Shown: positions 26,166 through 34,743 of the stretch, in pieces | Layout: the number at the start of each line of letters is the position of its first letter | Numbering within the stretch: position 1 is the first letter of the stretch | Translations under genes and position numbers: made by a program | NCBI GenBank assembly: GCA_027858955.1 | Contig: JAQIBR010000244.1 | Coordinates: 1-34,743, forward strand | DNA from: Bacteroidales bacterium | GTDB lineage: Bacteria; Bacteroidota; Bacteroidia; Bacteroidales; UBA12170 | Length of the DNA stretch: 34,743 nucleotides | Direction of reading: 5' to 3' | The notes under the pieces: model-generated | Seen by the model: only the letters and a program-made list of their open reading frames with translations | What the model was told of the DNA's origin: nothing | The model's database searches: none

Positions 26166-27293
26166 ATGATTCCAAGACAAGTATATAAGTTGATTCAAAA
26201 GAGAATTGATGACAAGAAAGTAATAATTGTTTTAGGCCCACGGCAATCTGGAAAAACAACATTGCTAGAAAAATTTGCAGCAGATAATTTTCCAAATGCA
26301 TTGTGGTGGAATGGTGATGAGACTGATACAAGGCAATTCCTTAAGAATCCAACTTCAACGATTTTAAAATCCTTGATTGGGGTCAATAAGCTGTTAATCA
26401 TAGACGAAGCTCAAAGAATTGAGAATATTGGATTGTGCATAAAATTAATATATGATAATATTAATGGTGTGAAAGTGATAGCATCAGGATCATCTGCTTT
26501 TGAACTTGCAAATAAAATTAATGAGCCATTAACAGGAAGGAAATGGGAATATTTTCTTTATCCAATTTCGTATTCTGAAATGATTGAATATCATGGAGCG
26601 ATAAATGAACGTAGGCTTTTTGAAAGCCGAATAATTTATGGTTATTATCCAGATGTGTTAAATAATTCTGGCGATGAGAAAATAATTTTACAACAACTAG
26701 CTGACAGTTATTTATATAAAGATATTCTAATTTGGGAAAAGATTCAAAAACCCGACCGTTTAGAAGCTTTAGTTCAGGCCTTAGCTTATCAGCTTGGAAA
26801 CGAGGTCTCTTTTTTAGAGCTAGCTAGGATTACAGGATTGGATAAGGAAACTGTAGAGCGATATATCATACTTCTTGAGCGAGCATTTGTAGTTTTTCGT
26901 TTGCGCTCGTTTAGTCGAAATCACAGATCAGAATTAAAGAAAAGTCGCAAAATTTACTTTTATGATAATGGTTTGCGCAATGCTATTATAAAAAATTTCA
27001 ATCCTCTAGGTTTACGGAATGATGTTGGTGCGCTATGGGAGAATTTTCTTATGAGCGAAAGGCTAAAGTTTCTTCAATATAATGAAATTTTTACTAATAG
27101 ATATTTTTGGAGAACCCATAGCCAGCAAGAAATAGATTATCTGGAGGAAAGGGAAGGGAAGCTTTTTGCATATGAGTTTAAATGGAATATTAATGCAAAA
27201 GCCAAATTTTCAAAGACATTTACAAACACTTATCCTGATAACGAAACTCAATTAATCACTCCAGCTAATTTTGAAAAATTTATATGTTCCTAG
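26166..27293 (+). CDS. AAA ATPase with DUF4143-type C-terminal domain, 375 aa
   Basis: The protein has Walker A GPRQSGKTT (24-32), Walker B LLIIDEAQ (near 77-84) and the sensor string IASGSSAFEL, the usual pattern of the AAA_14/DUF4143 family. The middle region carries a winged-helix-like part (LARITGLDKETVERYIILLERAFVVFRL). The C-terminus has EIDYLEEREGKLFAYEFKW, a spacing of Asp and Glu-x-Lys that recalls PD-(D/E)xK nuclease folds and is typical for the family. These ATPases are common in mobile and variable regions; their biochemical function is unsettled. It has its own promoter box, 171 bases after mazG, and is separated by 272 bases from the restriction operon. Involvement in defence is a guess from position. 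Confidence 0.85.
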   Translation: MIPRQVYKLIQKRIDDKKVIIVLGPRQSGKTTLLEKFAADNFPNALWWNGDETDTRQFLKNPTSTILKSLIGVNKLLIIDEAQRIENIGLCIKLIYDNINGVKVIASGSSAFELANKINEPLTGRKWEYFLYPISYSEMIEYHGAINERRLFESRIIYGYYPDVLNNSGDEKIILQQLADSYLYKDILIWEKIQKPDRLEALVQALAYQLGNEVSFLELARITGLDKETVERYIILLERAFVVFRLRSFSRNHRSELKKSRKIYFYDNGLRNAIIKNFNPLGLRNDVGALWENFLMSERLKFLQYNEIFTNRYFWRTHSQQEIDYLEEREGKLFAYEFKWNINAKAKFSKTFTNTYPDNETQLITPANFEKFICS

Positions 27294-27565: not shown

Positions 27566-27883
27566 ATGAAAATAGACAAATCAACAGGAGAAATACTTCG
27601 GGAGAAAAGAGAAGAAAAAGGATTGCTTCTTCGACAAGTAGCTGCCAAACTCGACATTGACACCGCAATACTCAGTAAAATTGAGAGAAGCGAAAGAAAA
27701 GCGAGTAAAGAACAGATAATAAAGCTGGCAAAAATTCTTGATTTAAAAGAAGAAAATTTACTCATTCAATATTTGAGTGAAAAAATACTGTACGAAATAA
27801 AAGATGAAGAACTTGGGAGCAAAGCACTAAAAGTAGCTGAAAAAAAAATGAAATACATAAGAAAAAATAAAAGCGGAAATTGA
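27566..27883 (+). CDS. XRE-family HTH regulator, controller-like, 105 aa
   Basis: A small DNA-binding protein whose residues about 8-62 form an XRE/Cro helix-turn-helix (ILREKREEKGLLLRQVAAKL, DTAILSKIERSERKASKEQI, KLAKILDLKEENLL), followed by a Lys-rich helical tail. It lies directly ahead of the restriction gene; its TGA overlaps the ATG of res (TGATG), so the two are translationally coupled. The family, position and the palindromes upstream suggest a controller protein that sets timing and level of restriction-modification. It is slightly longer than classic C proteins (about 80 residues). Other roles, such as an antitoxin-like repressor, cannot be excluded. Confidence 0.85.
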   Translation: MKIDKSTGEILREKREEKGLLLRQVAAKLDIDTAILSKIERSERKASKEQIIKLAKILDLKEENLLIQYLSEKILYEIKDEELGSKALKVAEKKMKYIRKNKSGN

Positions 27884-30600
27884 TGGAATTAAAATTAGAA
27901 CTATTAGAATACCAAGAAACCGCAATTAAATCAGTTGTGAATGTATTTGACGGAAACGACAAAAACACATTTGACAATGCTTGTACGGATGGTATTCGTT
28001 CAAATATTTGTTCACTCTCAAACGAACAATTAACAGAAAATATCAAATCAATTTTGCTTGAAAATGCAATTGATGAAAAAATTGCAGAACTCAAAGAAGA
28101 AAGGGAGTTGACTATTGAAATGGAAACTGGAACAGGAAAAACACTTGTTTACATTAAGTCCATTTACGAAATGTTCAAACATTACGGATTTACAAAATTT
28201 ATTATCCTTGTTCCTTCGATTGCTATTCGACAAGGAGTTTTAAGCACGCTCTCAACTTTTGAAAAACAATTGGAAGAAATTTACGGGTTTACACCCAAAG
28301 CATTTGAATACAGTAGTAAACGACTGAACAAAGTAACCAACTTTGTAGAAGAACAGCATCCGCAAATAATGGTAATGACCTTGGCTTCTTTTAACTCGGA
28401 AGATAAAATTTTGAACCAAGCCAAAAGAGAAGATTTATTTGCAAACATTCCGTTTATTGAAGCTATTGGGCGAACAAATCCAATCATCATAATGGATGAG
28501 CCACAAGAAGGAATGGACACGCCAAATTCCATTAAACAAATTGCAAAACTCAATCCACTTTTTAAAATTAGATATTCGGCAACACACAAAGTTGCAAAAA
28601 ACAAAACTTATCGTCTAACTCCCTACGACAGTTACACACAAGGTTTAGTCAAAAAGATTGAAGTTTTAACTGTTACCGAAAAGAATGATGAAGCCACTTT
28701 GAAATTGGAACTTACAGAAACCAAACACGGAAAGAATCTAATACAAGCACAAAATCAAGCTTGGCAACTATTGGCAAGTGGAAAGATTGAATTTAAGAAT
28801 ACAAAATGGCTGAAAGATGGAGATAACTTAGGAAAAGTAACTAACAACCCAAGTTATTTAAAATATTCGATTAGCAGAATAAACAAAAGTTTAAGAACAG
28901 GAAAATGGTCTGTTAGTTTTCATAATGGTGTTGAAATTTTTGAAAAACAAGCTTCTGGAAATGTACAAAGTATTTGGGCGTTACAATTTGAGTGGCTCAT
29001 ACTTCGTCATTTTACAAAAAAGCAAAAACTACAAGAAAAAGGCATAAAATGCCTTTCGCTTATTTTTATTGATAAAGTTGCCAATTACGTAAGTGATGAC
29101 CCAATAATCAAAAACCTTTTCATTGTAAAATACAAAGAAATTTATCCTGAATTTCATGAAAATAAAGAACCAACCGCAGAGCATATTGAAATGATTCAAG
29201 GTTCTTATTTTGCGAAAACCACAAAAAACGAGTTTACAGATAATGAAACATCAATGCGAAAAAACAAGGATGTTTTTGATGCAATTTTAAAAGACAAACA
29301 AGGCTTGTTAAGTTTTGGTGATTCCGTTTCCAATCAAATTGAATTTATCTTTTCACACTCCGCTTTAGGTGTTGGTTGGGATAATCCAAATATCTTTAAC
29401 ATTGCTACATTAAGCAATTCTTTTTCTGAAATCAAAAAACGCCAAGAAATTGGTAGAGGCTTACGAATATGTGTAGATACTAACGGACAGCGTATTTATG
29501 ACAAATTAAATGTAGATGATGCTGAACGAATTAACCAACTGACAGTAATTCCAAACGAGACTTACGAAACTTTTGTAACGCAATATCAAGAGGAAATAAA
29601 AGAGGTTTATGGTGATTCTGGTGCTGGTGCGGGAATGACCCATACACACAAAGGAGAAAAACAAAATGAAATTCATTTTAAGCGAAGCGAAAATGACACT
29701 ATCAATAAAGCTTTTATACGATTCTGGAATGCTTTAGCTAAGAAAACAACTTACACCGTAGGTTTTGATGAAGCATCATTGATTAAAAGAAGTAAAGAGG
29801 CTTTGAATACTATTGAAATTGCTGATTATGTAGCAGAAGTGAGTAGCAGAACCATTGGCTCTATTACAGAAGAAGGCATTGAAGATGAATTTGGAGGTAA
29901 AGAAAACTACAAACTAAAAGCTCATTTCTCAGCATTGGATTTAGTAGAAGAAATAAGTGAGAGCACAGGGCTAAGTTATAATACAACTATTGAAATAATT
30001 GAAAAAACAAATCACGAGAATTTCGCTAAAAATCCTCCTCAATTTATTCATCAAGCATCTGCATTAATAAAGAATATTGAGTTAGAAGAAATGATAAGAG
30101 GTTTAAATTATCATTTGACAGACGAAACTTTTCCTTTTGAATTTAACGACTTTGTAAAACAAGTTGATGACTCTCAGTACAGAGATACTCCAAATAGAGG
30201 TTTTTACAACAGAATGCTCACTGATAGTAATATTGAAAGAAGTTTTGCATTAGGGGCAGATTTAGATGATGAAATCATTTGCTTTATGAAACTCCCTGCT
30301 TATTACAAAATTCCAACTCCTATTGGAAAATACAATCCCGATTTTGGTATTGTAATGAAACGTAAAAGTTTAAGGGATGGAAAAGAAAGTGAGTTCTACT
30401 TTGTAATTGAAACCAAAGGAACAAACGACATCAACGATAAAAAAGCTCTAAAAGAAAGTGAGATTTATAAAATTGAATGTGCCTTAAAGCATTTTGCCAC
30501 ATTAGGAGTAGAAGTACAATACAAAGCACCTGTTAAAGACTACCAATATTTTAAAACAGAAGCTACCAAAAACATTAGCGCATTAATTGAAGAAGTATAA
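27883..30600 (+). CDS. Type III restriction enzyme subunit Res (helicase-nuclease), 905 aa
   Basis: Res is the translocating and cleaving subunit of a type III restriction-modification complex and acts with Mod on unmodified foreign DNA. The start is the ATG at 27883, overlapping the XRE stop; a TTG one codon earlier is less likely. The SF2 helicase core shows Walker A METGTGKT (80-87), the DEPQ box (205-208) typical of type III Res in place of DEAH, an SAT motif (YSATHK) and motif VI EIGRGLRI. At the C-terminus NPDF (Asp-820) and ETKG (Glu-843, Lys-845) give the PD-(D/E)xK nuclease centre. Length and order agree with known Res proteins. All motifs are intact, so the enzyme is probably active. 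KilA-N follows with a one-base overlap. Confidence 0.93.
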   Translation: MELKLELLEYQETAIKSVVNVFDGNDKNTFDNACTDGIRSNICSLSNEQLTENIKSILLENAIDEKIAELKEERELTIEMETGTGKTLVYIKSIYEMFKHYGFTKFIILVPSIAIRQGVLSTLSTFEKQLEEIYGFTPKAFEYSSKRLNKVTNFVEEQHPQIMVMTLASFNSEDKILNQAKREDLFANIPFIEAIGRTNPIIIMDEPQEGMDTPNSIKQIAKLNPLFKIRYSATHKVAKNKTYRLTPYDSYTQGLVKKIEVLTVTEKNDEATLKLELTETKHGKNLIQAQNQAWQLLASGKIEFKNTKWLKDGDNLGKVTNNPSYLKYSISRINKSLRTGKWSVSFHNGVEIFEKQASGNVQSIWALQFEWLILRHFTKKQKLQEKGIKCLSLIFIDKVANYVSDDPIIKNLFIVKYKEIYPEFHENKEPTAEHIEMIQGSYFAKTTKNEFTDNETSMRKNKDVFDAILKDKQGLLSFGDSVSNQIEFIFSHSALGVGWDNPNIFNIATLSNSFSEIKKRQEIGRGLRICVDTNGQRIYDKLNVDDAERINQLTVIPNETYETFVTQYQEEIKEVYGDSGAGAGMTHTHKGEKQNEIHFKRSENDTINKAFIRFWNALAKKTTYTVGFDEASLIKRSKEALNTIEIADYVAEVSSRTIGSITEEGIEDEFGGKENYKLKAHFSALDLVEEISESTGLSYNTTIEIIEKTNHENFAKNPPQFIHQASALIKNIELEEMIRGLNYHLTDETFPFEFNDFVKQVDDSQYRDTPNRGFYNRMLTDSNIERSFALGADLDDEIICFMKLPAYYKIPTPIGKYNPDFGIVMKRKSLRDGKESEFYFVIETKGTNDINDKKALKESEIYKIECALKHFATLGVEVQYKAPVKDYQYFKTEATKNISALIEEV

Positions 30601-31424
30601 TGGGAAAAACAAAAAAAATAAATATTGAAGGCACTTCAATAACAGTACTTTCCCAAAAGAAAGATGATTTTATTTCTCTTACCGATATGGCGAAAAGTCA
30701 ATTGCAGGATGTTGTAATTATAAAATGGCTTAGCTTAAAAAGTACTATTGAATATCTTGGTGAATGGGAAGCATTGTACAATCCTGATTTTAATTATACC
30801 GAATTCGGTACAATTAAAAATGAATCAGGTAGTAACAACTTTGTTTTATCTGTAAAAAATTGGATTGAAGCTACTAACGCAATAGGCTTAACTGCTAGAG
30901 CAGGAAGATACGGAGGAACTTATGGACATAAAGATATTGCCTTTCATTTTGGAATGTGGATTAGTCCAAAATTCCAATTACTACTTGTAAAAGAATACCA
31001 ACGACTAAAAGAAGATGAAAGTGATAGACTAAAACTACAATGGAATTTCCAAAGAACATTAGCAAAAGTAAATTACAAAATTCATACAGATGCCATAAAG
31101 AAAAACCTAATTCCTAATCAATTAAGTGGCAAACAAACGTCTATTATATATGCCAATGAAGCAGATGTACTAAACATTGCCTTATTTGGAAAAACAGCTA
31201 AACAATGGAGAGAAGAAAACCCTAACGAAAAAGGTAATGTTAGAGATTTTGCTACCATTCAGCAATTGGTTGTATTATCAAATTTGGAAAGCATCAATGC
31301 TATGCTTATTCATCAAGAGTTGTCTCAAAAAGACAGATTGATACAACTCAATTCAATGGCAATTACACAAATGAAATCGCTGGTAGAAAATATCATTATA
31401 AAGAAATTAGACAATGAGCAATAA
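30600..31424 (+). CDS. KilA-N domain protein, 274 aa
   Basis: The N-terminal half (FISLTDMAKSQLQDVVIIKWLSLKSTIEYLGEWEALYNPDFN and VKNWIEATNAIGLTARAGRYGGTYGHKDIAFHFGMWI) is a KilA-N DNA-binding domain, otherwise known from phage proteins. The C-terminal half is helical with GKQTSIIYANEADVLNIALFGKTAKQWREENP and a late coil. The ATG overlaps the res stop by one base (TAATG) and its own stop is 10 bases inside mod, so it is tightly bound into the operon. KilA-N genes between res and mod are known from other Bacteroidota type III loci. The role is unknown; DNA binding, regulation or target modulation are all possible. Confidence 0.88.
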   Translation: MGKTKKINIEGTSITVLSQKKDDFISLTDMAKSQLQDVVIIKWLSLKSTIEYLGEWEALYNPDFNYTEFGTIKNESGSNNFVLSVKNWIEATNAIGLTARAGRYGGTYGHKDIAFHFGMWISPKFQLLLVKEYQRLKEDESDRLKLQWNFQRTLAKVNYKIHTDAIKKNLIPNQLSGKQTSIIYANEADVLNIALFGKTAKQWREENPNEKGNVRDFATIQQLVVLSNLESINAMLIHQELSQKDRLIQLNSMAITQMKSLVENIIIKKLDNEQ

Positions 31425-33336
31425 CATAAACGATACAGAAAACCCAATGGAAAACGTACAAACGCACGATTGGAACAAAGAACGTTTGGAACAATTAAAA
31501 CTATTAATGCCAGACCTTTTTACCAATGATGGTAAACTTAACATTAGCGAATTAAAAAAAGTAATTGACCTTGAAAGCGTAAACGAAACTGAGCGTTACG
31601 AATTTAGATGGTTTGGAAAAAGCAATGCTAAAAGAGAAGCCTTTACACCTACTGATGCTACACTTGTTTATGATGATGAAAGAAGTGTAAACCCTACCGA
31701 AAGCGAAAACCTAATTATTGAAGGCGAAAATTTAGCGGTATTGAAATTACTAAGCAATAGCTACCGAGAACAAGTAAAGTGTATTTACATTGACCCACCA
31801 TACAATACAGGAAAAGACTTTGTGTATTCTGATAAATTTAACCAAGACAAAAAGGAATACTGGGAGGATGCTGAAATAACTGAAAATGGTTTTAAAATAG
31901 ATACCAATGCAGAAACTGATGGGCGTTTTCATAGCAATTGGCTGAATATGATGTACAGCAGACTACTGATTGCAAGACAGTTGTTAAAAGAAGATGGCGT
32001 AATTTTTATTTCCATCGATGATAATGAGGTACACCACTTAAGAAAATTATGTGATGATGTTTTTGGGGAGGAGAATTTTTTAGGAAACATTGTATGGAAG
32101 CATACAGAACAAAGTAAAAATGACGAAAAATATTTTTCTCGACAATTCAATAATATAATGGTGTTTAGAAAATCAGAAGCAATTGAAAGCTTTAGATTTC
32201 CAAGAACAGAAGAAGATAATGTAAATTATTCCAACCCCGATAATGACCCTGAAGGAGAATGGAGGGGTGGAGATACAAGAAGTCCAAACTACAGAAAGAC
32301 TTTATTATTTGACATTACTACTCCAAGCGGAAAAACAATTGCACCTCCTGAAAATGGGTGGAGATGGCAAGAATCAGAAATACTGTCAAAAATTGAAAAC
32401 AGAGAAATTATTTTCAGTGATGATGAAACAAGAATAATTAGAAAAATATATCTAAAAAATCAAAATGGTAGAGTTGCTGAAAACATATGGCAAGGTGGTC
32501 TTTTTGGTACAACAAGAAGTGCCAATGCGGAAATCAAAACCCTTTTCAATGATGAAGTGATTTTTGACACTCCCAAGCCCTCATCTTTGATTAAAATGAT
32601 TGTAAATCTATTTTTCAACGAACAAGATTTTAAAAAATTTTTGATATTAGATTTTTTCGCAGGTTCAGGCACAACAGGACAAGCAGTAACAGAGCTAAAC
32701 AAAGAAGATGGCGGAAACAGAAAATACATTTTAGTACAACTACCAGAAACCACAGACAAAAAAAGTGAGGCATACAAAGCAGGTTACAAAAAAATAAGTG
32801 ACATCACTATTGAGCGAAACAAGCGAGTGGTTGAAAAAATTATTAAAGAAAAGGCAGCCGCATCTCCTGATTTATTCAGCAAAAAAGAAAGTGAGCAAGA
32901 GCAATTAAAAGGTTTGGGTTTTAAAGTATTCAAACTTCAAAAATCAAACTTCCCAAGAGTTGAGTTTGCCCCAGACCCGGAAAAATCAGAAGAAGAAAAT
33001 ATTGAGTTACTTAAAAAATACATCAAAGACAAAGAAGCCCAATTGGTTTCTGCTTTCAATAAAGATGAATTGATTACCGAAATATTAATCAAAAACGGTT
33101 TCAAACTCAATTACACTCTAACCAAACAAGAAGAATTCAAAAAGAATGAAATACTGTTTGTTACAGATGGAGACAAAGAAACTTTAATTTGTTTAGATGT
33201 AATTATTGCAGACGAAACCGTAGAACATTTCAAAACCCATACAGACCAAAAATTAATTGTATTGGAACGTGCTTTAGACACCACCAAAAAATGGAATTTA
33301 AAACACGCTATGGGCGATAAGTTTAATGCTTTTTAA
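31414..33336 (+). CDS. Type III DNA methyltransferase Mod (beta class), 640 aa
   Basis: Mod methylates adenine at its recognition site and gives sequence specificity to Res. The beta-class order is visible: catalytic motif DPPYNTG (127-133) first, then a variable target-recognition region (about 200-400), then the S-adenosylmethionine motif DFFAGSGTTGQAV (413-425). The N-terminus carries the typical type III RYEFRWFGKSNAKREAF and ENLIIEGENLAVLKLL segments. The C-terminal ~170 residues are helical and probably contact Res. Catalytic motifs look intact. Overlaps the KilA-N gene by 11 bases, and the GIY-YIG-like gene follows after 3 bases. Confidence 0.95.
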   Translation: MSNNINDTENPMENVQTHDWNKERLEQLKLLMPDLFTNDGKLNISELKKVIDLESVNETERYEFRWFGKSNAKREAFTPTDATLVYDDERSVNPTESENLIIEGENLAVLKLLSNSYREQVKCIYIDPPYNTGKDFVYSDKFNQDKKEYWEDAEITENGFKIDTNAETDGRFHSNWLNMMYSRLLIARQLLKEDGVIFISIDDNEVHHLRKLCDDVFGEENFLGNIVWKHTEQSKNDEKYFSRQFNNIMVFRKSEAIESFRFPRTEEDNVNYSNPDNDPEGEWRGGDTRSPNYRKTLLFDITTPSGKTIAPPENGWRWQESEILSKIENREIIFSDDETRIIRKIYLKNQNGRVAENIWQGGLFGTTRSANAEIKTLFNDEVIFDTPKPSSLIKMIVNLFFNEQDFKKFLILDFFAGSGTTGQAVTELNKEDGGNRKYILVQLPETTDKKSEAYKAGYKKISDITIERNKRVVEKIIKEKAAASPDLFSKKESEQEQLKGLGFKVFKLQKSNFPRVEFAPDPEKSEEENIELLKKYIKDKEAQLVSAFNKDELITEILIKNGFKLNYTLTKQEEFKKNEILFVTDGDKETLICLDVIIADETVEHFKTHTDQKLIVLERALDTTKKWNLKHAMGDKFNAF

Positions 33337-33339
33337 AGA

Positions 33340-33795
33340 ATGACAAATGAAGTAACCATATATTTTGACAGTCCAAAGTCATTTGAGCCATCCAATATAA
33401 AACCATTGAATGGTATTGCGGGATTATACTTCATTTTTACTCAATCTATTGATATACAATATCCATTTGACAAGTCAAAACTATTGTATATCGGAATGAG
33501 CGAGAAGAAAACTAATAGTATTGGCAGTAGATTAGTAGGGCATTTTGATGGTAAATCAAAAAACTTAGGTTTAAGCAATTACAGAAAAGTTGAACCTTTA
33601 CTATTTACCTACATTAATTTTGAAATGCTTAAAAATATTTGGCAATTCCGAATCGAAGATTTGGAAAGTTATTTCATTCTGGATTTTGTGGAACAATATG
33701 GGGTTTACCCGATTTGCAATAACAAATCTGGTTTTGAAATTCAAAATAAAACGCTATCCTCCAGTTTTAAAATTGATTGGAAATACTTTAAATAA
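33340..33795 (+). CDS. GIY-YIG-like nuclease domain protein, 151 aa
   Basis: The protein shows the pattern of a small GIY-YIG nuclease: GLY (28-30) and YIG (50-52) joined by a beta hairpin, then an Arg in IGSRLVGHF (Arg-64), a glutamate in IEDLESYFI (Glu-106 or Glu-109) and an Asn in YPICNNKSG (127-128). These are the positions of the two tyrosines, the Arg, the metal-binding Glu and the Asn of the family. It has no partner DNA-binding domain. Three bases follow the mod stop, and a small acidic gene follows after 6 bases, so it belongs to the same operon. It may be a second nuclease of the defence system or an unrelated passenger; assignment is from motif reading only. Confidence 0.65.
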   Translation: MTNEVTIYFDSPKSFEPSNIKPLNGIAGLYFIFTQSIDIQYPFDKSKLLYIGMSEKKTNSIGSRLVGHFDGKSKNLGLSNYRKVEPLLFTYINFEMLKNIWQFRIEDLESYFILDFVEQYGVYPICNNKSGFEIQNKTLSSSFKIDWKYFK

Positions 33796-33801
33796 ACCAC
33801 T

Positions 33802-33984
33802 ATGGCAGACAAAGTAAAATCTGGAAAAGAAATATTAGATGATTTTTTCAATGATATTGAAGAAATTGAGAATGTAGATACGGACATTGCAAAAATGCTA
33901 GCGGAACTTTATCAGAATGATAAATTGACAGATACTAATGTTAAGAATGAACTTCAAAAACTGAGAGATGGAAGTAAAGATTAA
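33802..33984 (+). CDS. Small acidic protein of unknown function, 60 aa
   Basis: I do not recognise this small protein. It is strongly acidic in the middle (ILDDFFNDIEEIENVDTDIAKMLAELY) and basic at both ends, with predicted helices and no signal peptide or cysteine. The next gene (the ATPase) starts inside it, overlapping by 17 bases, and it follows the GIY-YIG-like gene by 6 bases. That tight fit makes it likely to be real and to be a partner of the ATPase, perhaps a regulatory subunit or an inhibitor; this is inference. Confidence 0.7.
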   Translation: MADKVKSGKEILDDFFNDIEEIENVDTDIAKMLAELYQNDKLTDTNVKNELQKLRDGSKD

Positions 33985-34743
33985 TAACATTACCATCAAA
34001 GGAATTAGAGGTGCTAAAAATAATTTAGAATTACCGCTAAATGGGAAATCTATTTTGCTTTATGGTGATAATGGAACTGGAAAAAGTAGCATCTCAGATT
34101 CTATTGAATGGTTTTATACAAACCGAGTATCTCACTTATCAAGCAATAGTGAAATAGATTTAAAAGATGCTTTAAGAAATTCAGCACTTGATTCTGTTGA
34201 TATTTCGGAAGTAAATATCTCATTTATTAAAGAGTCAGATTTGGATTGCTCCAAAACGCTTTTCAACAAACGAGATAAATTAACAACTGAATTTTCAAAC
34301 ACTTCTGATGCTTTCAAGCTATATATCGATGAATCGAAGGAAGAAAATTTATTGTTACGATATCAACACCTAACGAGTTTTATTGATGATACTAAAGGAG
34401 ATAAATTAAAATATTTATCTGACATCATTGGGTTTTCAGAGGTAACAAAGAAGAAAGATGTTCTTAAAAAAAGTTACAACTCCATAAAGACAGAAATCAA
34501 AAATCAAAATTTTGAGGCTCAAACAAATACTCAAAAACAAGTACTTATTGAAAAATTAGGCGCAGTTATTAGTCAAAAAGAGAACCTTTTTGAAAAGATA
34601 AATGAAAAAATAAAACCTTTAAAAACAGGTCTTGAGGTTAATAATATTGAGGATATTGATAAAGTTCTTTTGCACTTAAAAAATTTAACAAATAGTAAGT
34701 TAAATAAGGAATTTGCTTTTTTAGAAAAATCTAATATTGTTCT
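33968..34743 (+). CDS. SMC/RecF-like AAA ATPase, 3' end outside window
   Basis: The frame opens at ATG 33968 (MEVKINNITIKGIRGAKN) and stays open for 258 codons to the window edge. The N-terminus has the ABC-type head of SMC, RecF and related ATPases: IKGIRG followed by Walker A GDNGTGKSS (33-41) and SDSIEWFYTNR. From about residue 140 on the sequence is Lys/Glu-rich and coiled-coil-like (KKKDVLKKSYNSIKTEIKNQ, QKQVLIEKLGAVISQKENLFE), as expected before a hinge. The C-terminal half with the ABC signature and Walker B is not visible. It overlaps the small acidic gene by 17 bases. Such ATPases are frequent in phage-defence operons, often with a nuclease domain; that cannot be judged here. Confidence 0.85.
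   Translation, partial: MEVKINNITIKGIRGAKNNLELPLNGKSILLYGDNGTGKSSISDSIEWFYTNRVSHLSSNSEIDLKDALRNSALDSVDISEVNISFIKESDLDCSKTLFNKRDKLTTEFSNTSDAFKLYIDESKEENLLLRYQHLTSFIDDTKGDKLKYLSDIIGFSEVTKKKDVLKKSYNSIKTEIKNQNFEAQTNTQKQVLIEKLGAVISQKENLFEKINEKIKPLKTGLEVNNIEDIDKVLLHLKNLTNSKLNKEFAFLEKSNIV

Follow-up and report, generated by a model that had tools for sequence, protein, structure and literature searches.

The window analysed here is the whole contig JAQIBR010000244.1 (34,743 nucleotides, nt), one of the 273 contigs of a Bacteroidales assembly (GCA_027858955.1). Its right-hand part carries a type III restriction-modification operon and, directly behind it, three genes, referred to below as the trio, which encode a GIY-YIG-like protein, a small acidic protein and a Rad50/SMC-like ATPase of the ATP-binding cassette (ABC) type. 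Seven open reading frames (ORFs) lie in tandem on the plus strand, in the order XRE, res, KilA-N, mod, GIY-YIG-like, small and ATPase, with successive distances of -4, -1, -11, +3, +6 and -17 nt. The tight spacing described in the first-pass annotation, with overlaps or gaps of at most 6 bases, was thus recovered, the longest overlap being 17 nt. Because the window is a whole contig, the ATPase breaks off at the contig end after 258 of about 811 residues. The seven genes are the following (aa, amino acids):

27566-27883, plus strand: XRE regulator (Pfam HTH_3, E=1.1e-10), a neighbour belonging to the type III operon and outside the trio
27880-30600, plus strand: type III Res (Pfam ResIII 8e-17 and RE_endonuc 1.3e-29; PADLOC REase_III 7.7e-169), listed with a TTG start, which is putative
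30600-31424, plus strand: KilA-N protein (Pfam KilA-N 2e-20), in the neighbouring operon
31414-33336, plus strand: type III Mod methyltransferase (Pfam N6_N4_Mtase 3.2e-33; PADLOC MTase_III 1.2e-164)
33340-33795, plus strand: putative GIY-YIG nuclease of 151 aa, predicted effector (sub-threshold Pfam match, conserved active site, structure model)
33802-33984, plus strand: small acidic protein of 60 aa, encoded at each of the 82 trio loci described below and predicted to serve the ATPase as a coupling or safety subunit
33968-34741, plus strand: Rad50/SMC-like ABC ATPase, N-terminal 258 aa (Pfam AAA_23, E=3.6e-10), with no stop codon

By their domain content, XRE, res, KilA-N and mod make up an ordinary type III restriction-modification operon: the Res helicase-endonuclease and the Mod methylase, encoded by the second and fourth genes, were both matched by Pfam and PADLOC models, in agreement with the normal core proposed earlier. 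The trio adjoins this operon and is probably co-transcribed with it in the window.

The first relative of the GIY protein was retrieved by a tblastn search of plasmids. An Aliiroseovarius crassostreae plasmid encodes a protein with 43% identity, and a small gene and an ATPase gene stand beside its GIY gene, which is reversed. The alignment of these two GIY sequences was used to scan a one-genome-per-species collection, which returned 111 relatives; all counts for the trio concern the best 80 of them, ranked by GIY similarity. With the window they amount to 81 loci, and to 82 when the plasmid locus is added; single loci are cited by L numbers. The GIY, small and ATPase genes were found in the same order and on one strand in 80 out of 80 kept relatives, so their grouping is not due to chance. 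The order is maintained in 81 out of the 82 loci, the exception being L004, where the effector gene is reversed. Both the GIY-YIG-like and the acidic gene, whose lack of conservation the first-pass annotation had named as an argument against its own proposal, are present in all 82. In the kept relatives and the window, the GIY and small genes are separated by -17 to +28 nt, save for one distance of 183 nt (L075), while the small and ATPase genes overlap in 78 out of 81 loci (0, +1 and +6 nt in the remaining three). Pairwise distances computed from 77 loci were correlated between GIY and ATPase (0.82), GIY and small (0.73) and small and ATPase (0.88) proteins, and none of 999 permutations gave values as high.

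According to the record titles, the hosts include Bacteroidota, Nitrospirota, Aminicenantes, Cloacimonadota, Dehalococcoidia, Patescibacteria, an Aenigmatarchaeon and others, many of these records being metagenome bins whose taxon labels may be wrong. In the nearest relative, L014, the three proteins share 96, 95 and 88% identity with those of the window (the ATPase over the fragment), and the ATPase is 811 aa long. Near-duplicates are present (L017/L018, L020/L021 and L048-L050); therefore, the number of independent events is lower than 81. The family is rare and patchy. When 296 genomes of the window's phylum were searched with single sequences (ATPase fragment E<=1e-15, GIY protein E<=1e-3), only the window's own genome was matched, and among 395 genomes of its class one further genome was detected, with a divergent relative lacking the GIY gene. 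No trio relatives were found in phage and viral collections or in viral-contig scans, and a phage home for the trio was dropped on this ground.

The Pfam profile PF20815 (GIY_YIG_2) matched the GIY protein below threshold (E=0.001, 19.5 bits versus a cut-off of 22.4). Residues G28, Y30, Y50-I51-G52, R64, H68, E109 and N127 are invariant in 82 out of 82 GIY proteins, and these conserved positions, which include a Tyr, an Arg, a Glu and an Asn, presumably correspond to the catalytic set of GIY-YIG nucleases. The structure was predicted as a single domain of about 150 aa (predicted local distance difference test score, pLDDT, of 91.1). When it was compared with 350,542 PDB chains using Foldseek, GIY-YIG domains of UvrC took ranks 1 and 2 (E 0.32 and 0.69), an unrelated chain rank 3 and T4 EndoII rank 4, with E values from 0.32 to 2.5; a GIY profile gave 0 matches to PDB sequences. 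The GIY-YIG assignment is made because the conserved active-site positions and the predicted fold back the weak Pfam match, and both support the placement of the first trio protein in the GIY-YIG nuclease superfamily.

The ATPase fragment of the window was matched, besides AAA_23, by SMC_N (3.7e-8, below the curated cut-off) and by the PADLOC model LmuB (E=2.4e-14). Full-length relatives, with a median of 807 aa, contain a Walker A motif, an SES-H-x-N signature and an H-loop. Their Walker B motif ends in Asp (position 585) in 76 out of 77 cases, and a CPxC zinc hook is present in 78 out of 82 (CPLC in 77, CPFC in 1; the four other rows are too short). In Pfam they match SMC_N, AAA_23 and AAA_13, partly below cut-off; in PADLOC the best models are LmuB and mad3, the LmuB models reaching E values of 4e-26 to 8.7e-23 against three full-length trio ATPases. 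Their only relatives among PDB sequences are Rad50/SMC heads.

The C-terminal region of the ATPase (about 170 aa) bears the conserved residues R677-x3-E681-x3-K685, N700, N703-E704, R706-M707 and S747-H748, together with four cysteines of a zinc ribbon. Conservation reaches 69/70 for R677, 69/69 for E681, K685 and S747, and 68/69 for H748. The domain was modelled as a helical bundle (pLDDT 84.5), for which Foldseek gave a best E value of 0.019 and template modelling (TM) scores of 0.38-0.45. Chains named HEPN were found at ranks 3 and 8 and the HEPN domain of sacsin at rank 25, while ranks 1, 2 and 4 belong to one Sulfolobus protein, which we assume to be a HEPN protein. The model is thus supportive, albeit not proof, of a HEPN-like helical fold. 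PMC3710099 describes HEPN domains with an Rx4-6H motif as RNases that need no metal, and names Ex3[KR] as another motif common among HEPN domains. The latter is present here as E681-x3-K685. At two loci (L045:10634-13062 and L057:1679-4110), the ATPase is split into two ORFs, the second with the HEPN-like domain, which could reflect a frameshift or two genes.

The small protein has a median length of 62 aa and is net negative in 75 out of 82 loci. It had no usable match in Pfam, NCBIfam or the other databases searched, and its profile matched PDB sequences at chance level only (best E 0.021, a syntaxin). A single Phe is invariant in the 34 aligned rows. Since these include three partners of ATPases without a GIY gene, the small protein appears to go with the ATPase and not with the nuclease, and it is predicted to be a coupling or safety subunit of the former. 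A fusion of the small protein to the ATPase in L016-L018 was considered and rejected in favour of an upstream in-frame start.

This pairing also exists without the nuclease. In 13 out of 13 plasmid loci taken as members, a small gene overlaps the ATPase gene and the fetched flanks contain no GIY gene. These plasmids come from alphaproteobacteria (Sphingomonas, Roseibium, Mesorhizobium, Phaeobacter, Rhizobium, Pseudohalocynthiibacter) and haloarchaea, and the same pair was found in the one further genome of the window's class. Of these 14 small genes, 3 were aligned and the others were assigned by position; 10 out of 11 plasmid matches of the ATPase fragment were inspected, a second Phaeobacter record being left out. 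Matches in Pantoea and Streptomyces plasmids (L012 and L013) were not accepted as members, given query covers of 25% and 18%. In a Halorhabdus tiamatea plasmid (L007:5811-8475), the pair is located between pglX and pglZ of a bacteriophage exclusion (BREX) system, a link not repeated in three further haloarchaeal plasmids. In a quick tree, 20 trio ATPases grouped in a single clade (support 0.99) that excluded nine LmuB and two RloC-like proteins; eight ATPases of GIY-less pairs grouped weakly (0.59), and the point at which they join the trio clade was not resolved.

Homologues of both res and mod were present in the fetched flanks of 6 out of 81 loci (the window, L014, L017, L018, L032 and L061), and the remaining 75 lacked the pair. 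As the first-pass annotation stated, the trio is no recognised component of type III systems. The gap between mod and the GIY gene is 2-3 nt in the window, L017, L018 and L032. In L014 (L014:3199-7293), res and mod form one ORF of 1364 aa, in which res residues 2-798 are followed by mod residues 107-640; as the res part ends at 798, most of the Res endonuclease domain (774-886) is gone. This ORF, from a metagenome bin, may be a fused gene, a remnant or an assembly error, and the trio beside it is intact.

Elsewhere, the trio neighbours type I subunits, type IIG enzymes, Shedu, Wadjet JetA with a JetC-like protein, SIR2 with HerA, an OLD/PARIS-like ATPase, an AAA_13 (RloC-like) protein and Cas9. 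Using 16 seeds in a leave-one-out scheme (E<=1e-10), we detected a known defence gene near 29 out of 81 trio loci and near 0 out of 33 control stretches (Fisher p 9.6e-6), the controls (660 kb) coming from eight genomes of the window's phylum and the trio loci from many phyla. At E<=1e-20 the counts were 26/81 and 0/33, and 36/81 trio loci had defence neighbours when seed-giving loci were counted. The count is limited to defence families represented by a seed, and two seeds were named without a direct model match of that name: a second HsdM, by likeness, and JetC, by its Pfam SbcC-type domains and its position next to JetA. Of the options raised by the first-pass annotation, the trio looks like a second defence module sited behind restriction; that it extends type III restriction, or serves it as an accessory complex, is not supported (6/81).

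Sequence comparison and prediction together back a constant trio, a GIY active site, a zinc hook, a HEPN-like fold and a defence neighbourhood. On balance, we lean towards reading the last three genes as an autonomous, horizontally spread defence cassette placed behind the type III operon; it is probably a separate defence system and not an extension of type III. In the mechanism that we propose, the ATPase would dimerise through its zinc hook and monitor DNA for ends or abnormal structures, for example those arising from restriction or phage replication. Upon engagement, ATP binding or hydrolysis would release two effectors: the GIY-YIG nuclease, acting in trans, would cut DNA, and the HEPN-like tail, acting in cis, would cut RNA, perhaps tRNA. 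Phage growth would then stop. The small protein, encoded in an overlap with the ATPase gene, would couple these steps or serve as a safety subunit. Both the hook of the ATPase and the recurrent location of the cassette next to restriction systems would make sense if the sensor fired at broken DNA arising from restriction or phage replication.

Parts of this plan are known from other systems. In RloC, linear DNA or breaks activate the hooked ATPase, which then permits the protein's own nuclease to cleave tRNA, as outlined in PMC3874168; PrrC, which also sits in restriction operons, is described as restrained by a type I enzyme and set free once a phage blocks restriction (PMC3710099, PMC2610378). 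The trio ATPase resembles these anticodon nucleases, which combine an ABC ATPase with a HEPN domain, in its coiled-coil-split ABC ATPase, its CxxC zinc hook and its C-terminal R-x3-E followed later by Ser-His, and its median of 807 aa compares with the 658-897 aa given for RloC (PMC2610378); an in-trans DNase would be the trio's addition to the plan. The triad reported for RloC is R-x3-E-x36-52-H, often with a Ser before the His (PMC2610378), whereas the spacing between Glu and His is 60-69 in 38 out of 39 trio domains measured (L052, without S-H, was left out). The trio also has an extra zinc ribbon and two partner genes (small protein and GIY-YIG) that have no counterpart in the RloC descriptions consulted. 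An alignment of only two RloC-like C-termini gave an hhalign probability of 0.5% with the C-terminal profile. Orthology with RloC was dropped in view of the spacing and of the missing profile match to these two C-termini; the trio ATPase shares the overall layout of RloC and is best called RloC-like.

Several results weigh against the reading as a defence cassette with two nuclease outputs. Neither the GIY model nor the C-terminal domain model had a Foldseek match at E<=0.001 among PDB chains. The Rx4-6H motif is incomplete: H748 is conserved in 68/69 sequences, with an Asn four residues before it and no conserved Arg 5-7 residues upstream, and in view of this missing Arg the HEPN-like domain may be inactive. 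Complete ATPase ORFs of 646-656 aa without the HEPN-like domain occur in L063, L075 and L087. In 99% of pairs of loci, the GIY protein shows smaller differences than the ATPase; such conservation is unusual for an effector, albeit biased upward because the loci were picked by GIY similarity. In addition, 45 out of 81 loci had no match to the 16 seeds, which cover some defence families only. Finally, complex formation, DNA sensing, both nuclease activities and an anti-phage effect are steps that we infer.

We place the trio among the ABC-ATPase-anchored conflict systems, with a real chance that it constitutes a distinct dual-nuclease defence family. A fuller proposal, which we put forward tentatively and hold to be possible but short of probable, is that of an undescribed defence family in which a Rad50-like sensor with a constant partner of about 60 aa would fire two nucleases differing in chemistry, a GIY-YIG DNase in trans and a HEPN-type RNase in cis; a wider two-gene core would reach haloarchaea, and the GIY-YIG gene would have joined it in one lineage, after which the trio would have spread as a unit, settling behind any restriction system that was there. 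The trio was not found described in the open literature searched; an earlier mention of the ATPase family is possible. The PADLOC-DB and NCBIfam releases searched hold no relevant model for the GIY and small proteins, and the ATPase matched distant ABC families only (PADLOC, Pfam); pipelines built on PADLOC-DB and NCBIfam would consequently miss the system. If our reading is right, a family would be added to the DNA-sensing SMC/Rad50-like immune systems, one in which DNA- and RNA-cutting outputs may depend on a single sensor. How ABC-type guards watch over restriction enzymes is an old question, of which PrrC is a case. Because the trio occurs in distantly related bacteria and archaea and repeatedly lies beside restriction systems, this question could be addressed with a compact set of three genes.

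The best surviving alternative, which we nonetheless consider unlikely, is a Lamassu/ABC-3C system with a new effector, in which the GIY-YIG protein would be LmuA, the 60-aa protein LmuC and the ATPase LmuB, its C-terminal domain being only structural. The gene order of effector, small protein and ABC ATPase is that described for Lamassu (PMC10586767), and the likeness to Lamassu, ABC-3C and DdmABC extends to a Rad50-like ATPase with a zinc hook and to the LmuB models, the nearest in PADLOC. However, the middle protein of the trio has about 60 aa, versus 161-231 aa for the LmuC-like genes upstream of nine fetched LmuB, compared by size only. The trio Walker B reads LDD, in contrast to LDQ, a Glu-to-Gln change found in 7 of the 9 LmuB, and the trio ATPases form their own clade in the quick tree. 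Membership in Lamassu was dropped for these three reasons. Moreover, LmuB measures about 650 aa versus the median of 807 aa and, unlike the trio ATPase, has no HEPN-like tail, and the trio effector is a single GIY-YIG domain of about 150 aa without the C-terminal docking domain of LmuA.

A DNA-repair machine analogous to SbcCD/Mre11-Rad50, with the GIY-YIG protein replacing Mre11, has a slimmer chance. Such a role would fit a hooked Rad50-like ATPase whose neighbouring gene encodes a nuclease, PDB sequence relatives confined to Rad50/SMC heads, and a plasmid annotation that transfers double-strand break repair to the ATPase family. Against it stand the patchy, rare distribution, with the own genome only among the 296 of the phylum, the defence neighbours at 29 out of 81 loci, the HEPN-like tail, the GIY-YIG type of nuclease and the small third protein.

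Still less probable, in our view, is a selfish cassette of the toxin-antitoxin kind, in which the GIY protein, the HEPN-like tail or both would be the toxin, the small protein the antitoxin and defence a side effect. Its acidic small partner, the horizontal spread and the plasmid copies of the two-gene form suit addiction. By contrast, the small protein follows the ATPase and not the GIY protein and is kept in GIY-less pairs, and a large ABC sensor is atypical of simple toxin-antitoxin pairs. An accessory working only with Mod and Res, to which the 2-3 nt gap behind mod at four loci would point, was dropped as highly improbable, given the res and mod pair at only 6 out of 81 loci and the intact trio beside a degraded res/mod in L014.

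A constant small partner combined with varied nucleases, including GIY-YIG (URI), is also reported for the DndD/CxC ABC ATPases with DndE (PMC10853773), which are a different ATPase family. By the description given there, DndE consists of two ribbon-helix-helix units, and the DndD hook is CxC versus CPxC in the trio.

Some neighbours of the trio recur. Shedu (SduA-type) genes lie near it in 5 out of 81 loci, upstream in L065, L082, L085 and L086 and downstream in L044, and a WYL-like gene precedes them in L044, L065, L082 and L086. An AAA_13 (RloC-like) protein adjoins the trio in L039 (L039:7682-18484) and L046 (L046:13313-15610); in L039 a Wadjet-like JetA/JetC set also follows, so that several SMC/Rad50-like systems stand side by side. 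Small genes of about 72 aa were found within 118 nt of the trio, up- or downstream, in 16 out of 81 loci (for example, L029:1149-1364, L043:13062-13292 and L089:2114-2329), and such a gene is a possible fourth component. Two of the 16 fall into one cluster, and its scanned member has a Pfam KTSC match (1.5e-27). The other 14 form a separate cluster, KTSC-like by eye only, whose one scanned member had no Pfam match and which aligned weakly with the KTSC cluster (hhalign probability 3.9%).

Within the type III operon of the window, the KilA-N gene matches the PADLOC candidate PDC-S22 over almost its whole length (2.2e-128, residues 1-272), and a KilA-N gene is also located between res and mod in L061. 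Directly upstream of the operon, at 26166-27293, the window encodes an AAA_14/DUF4143 ATPase.

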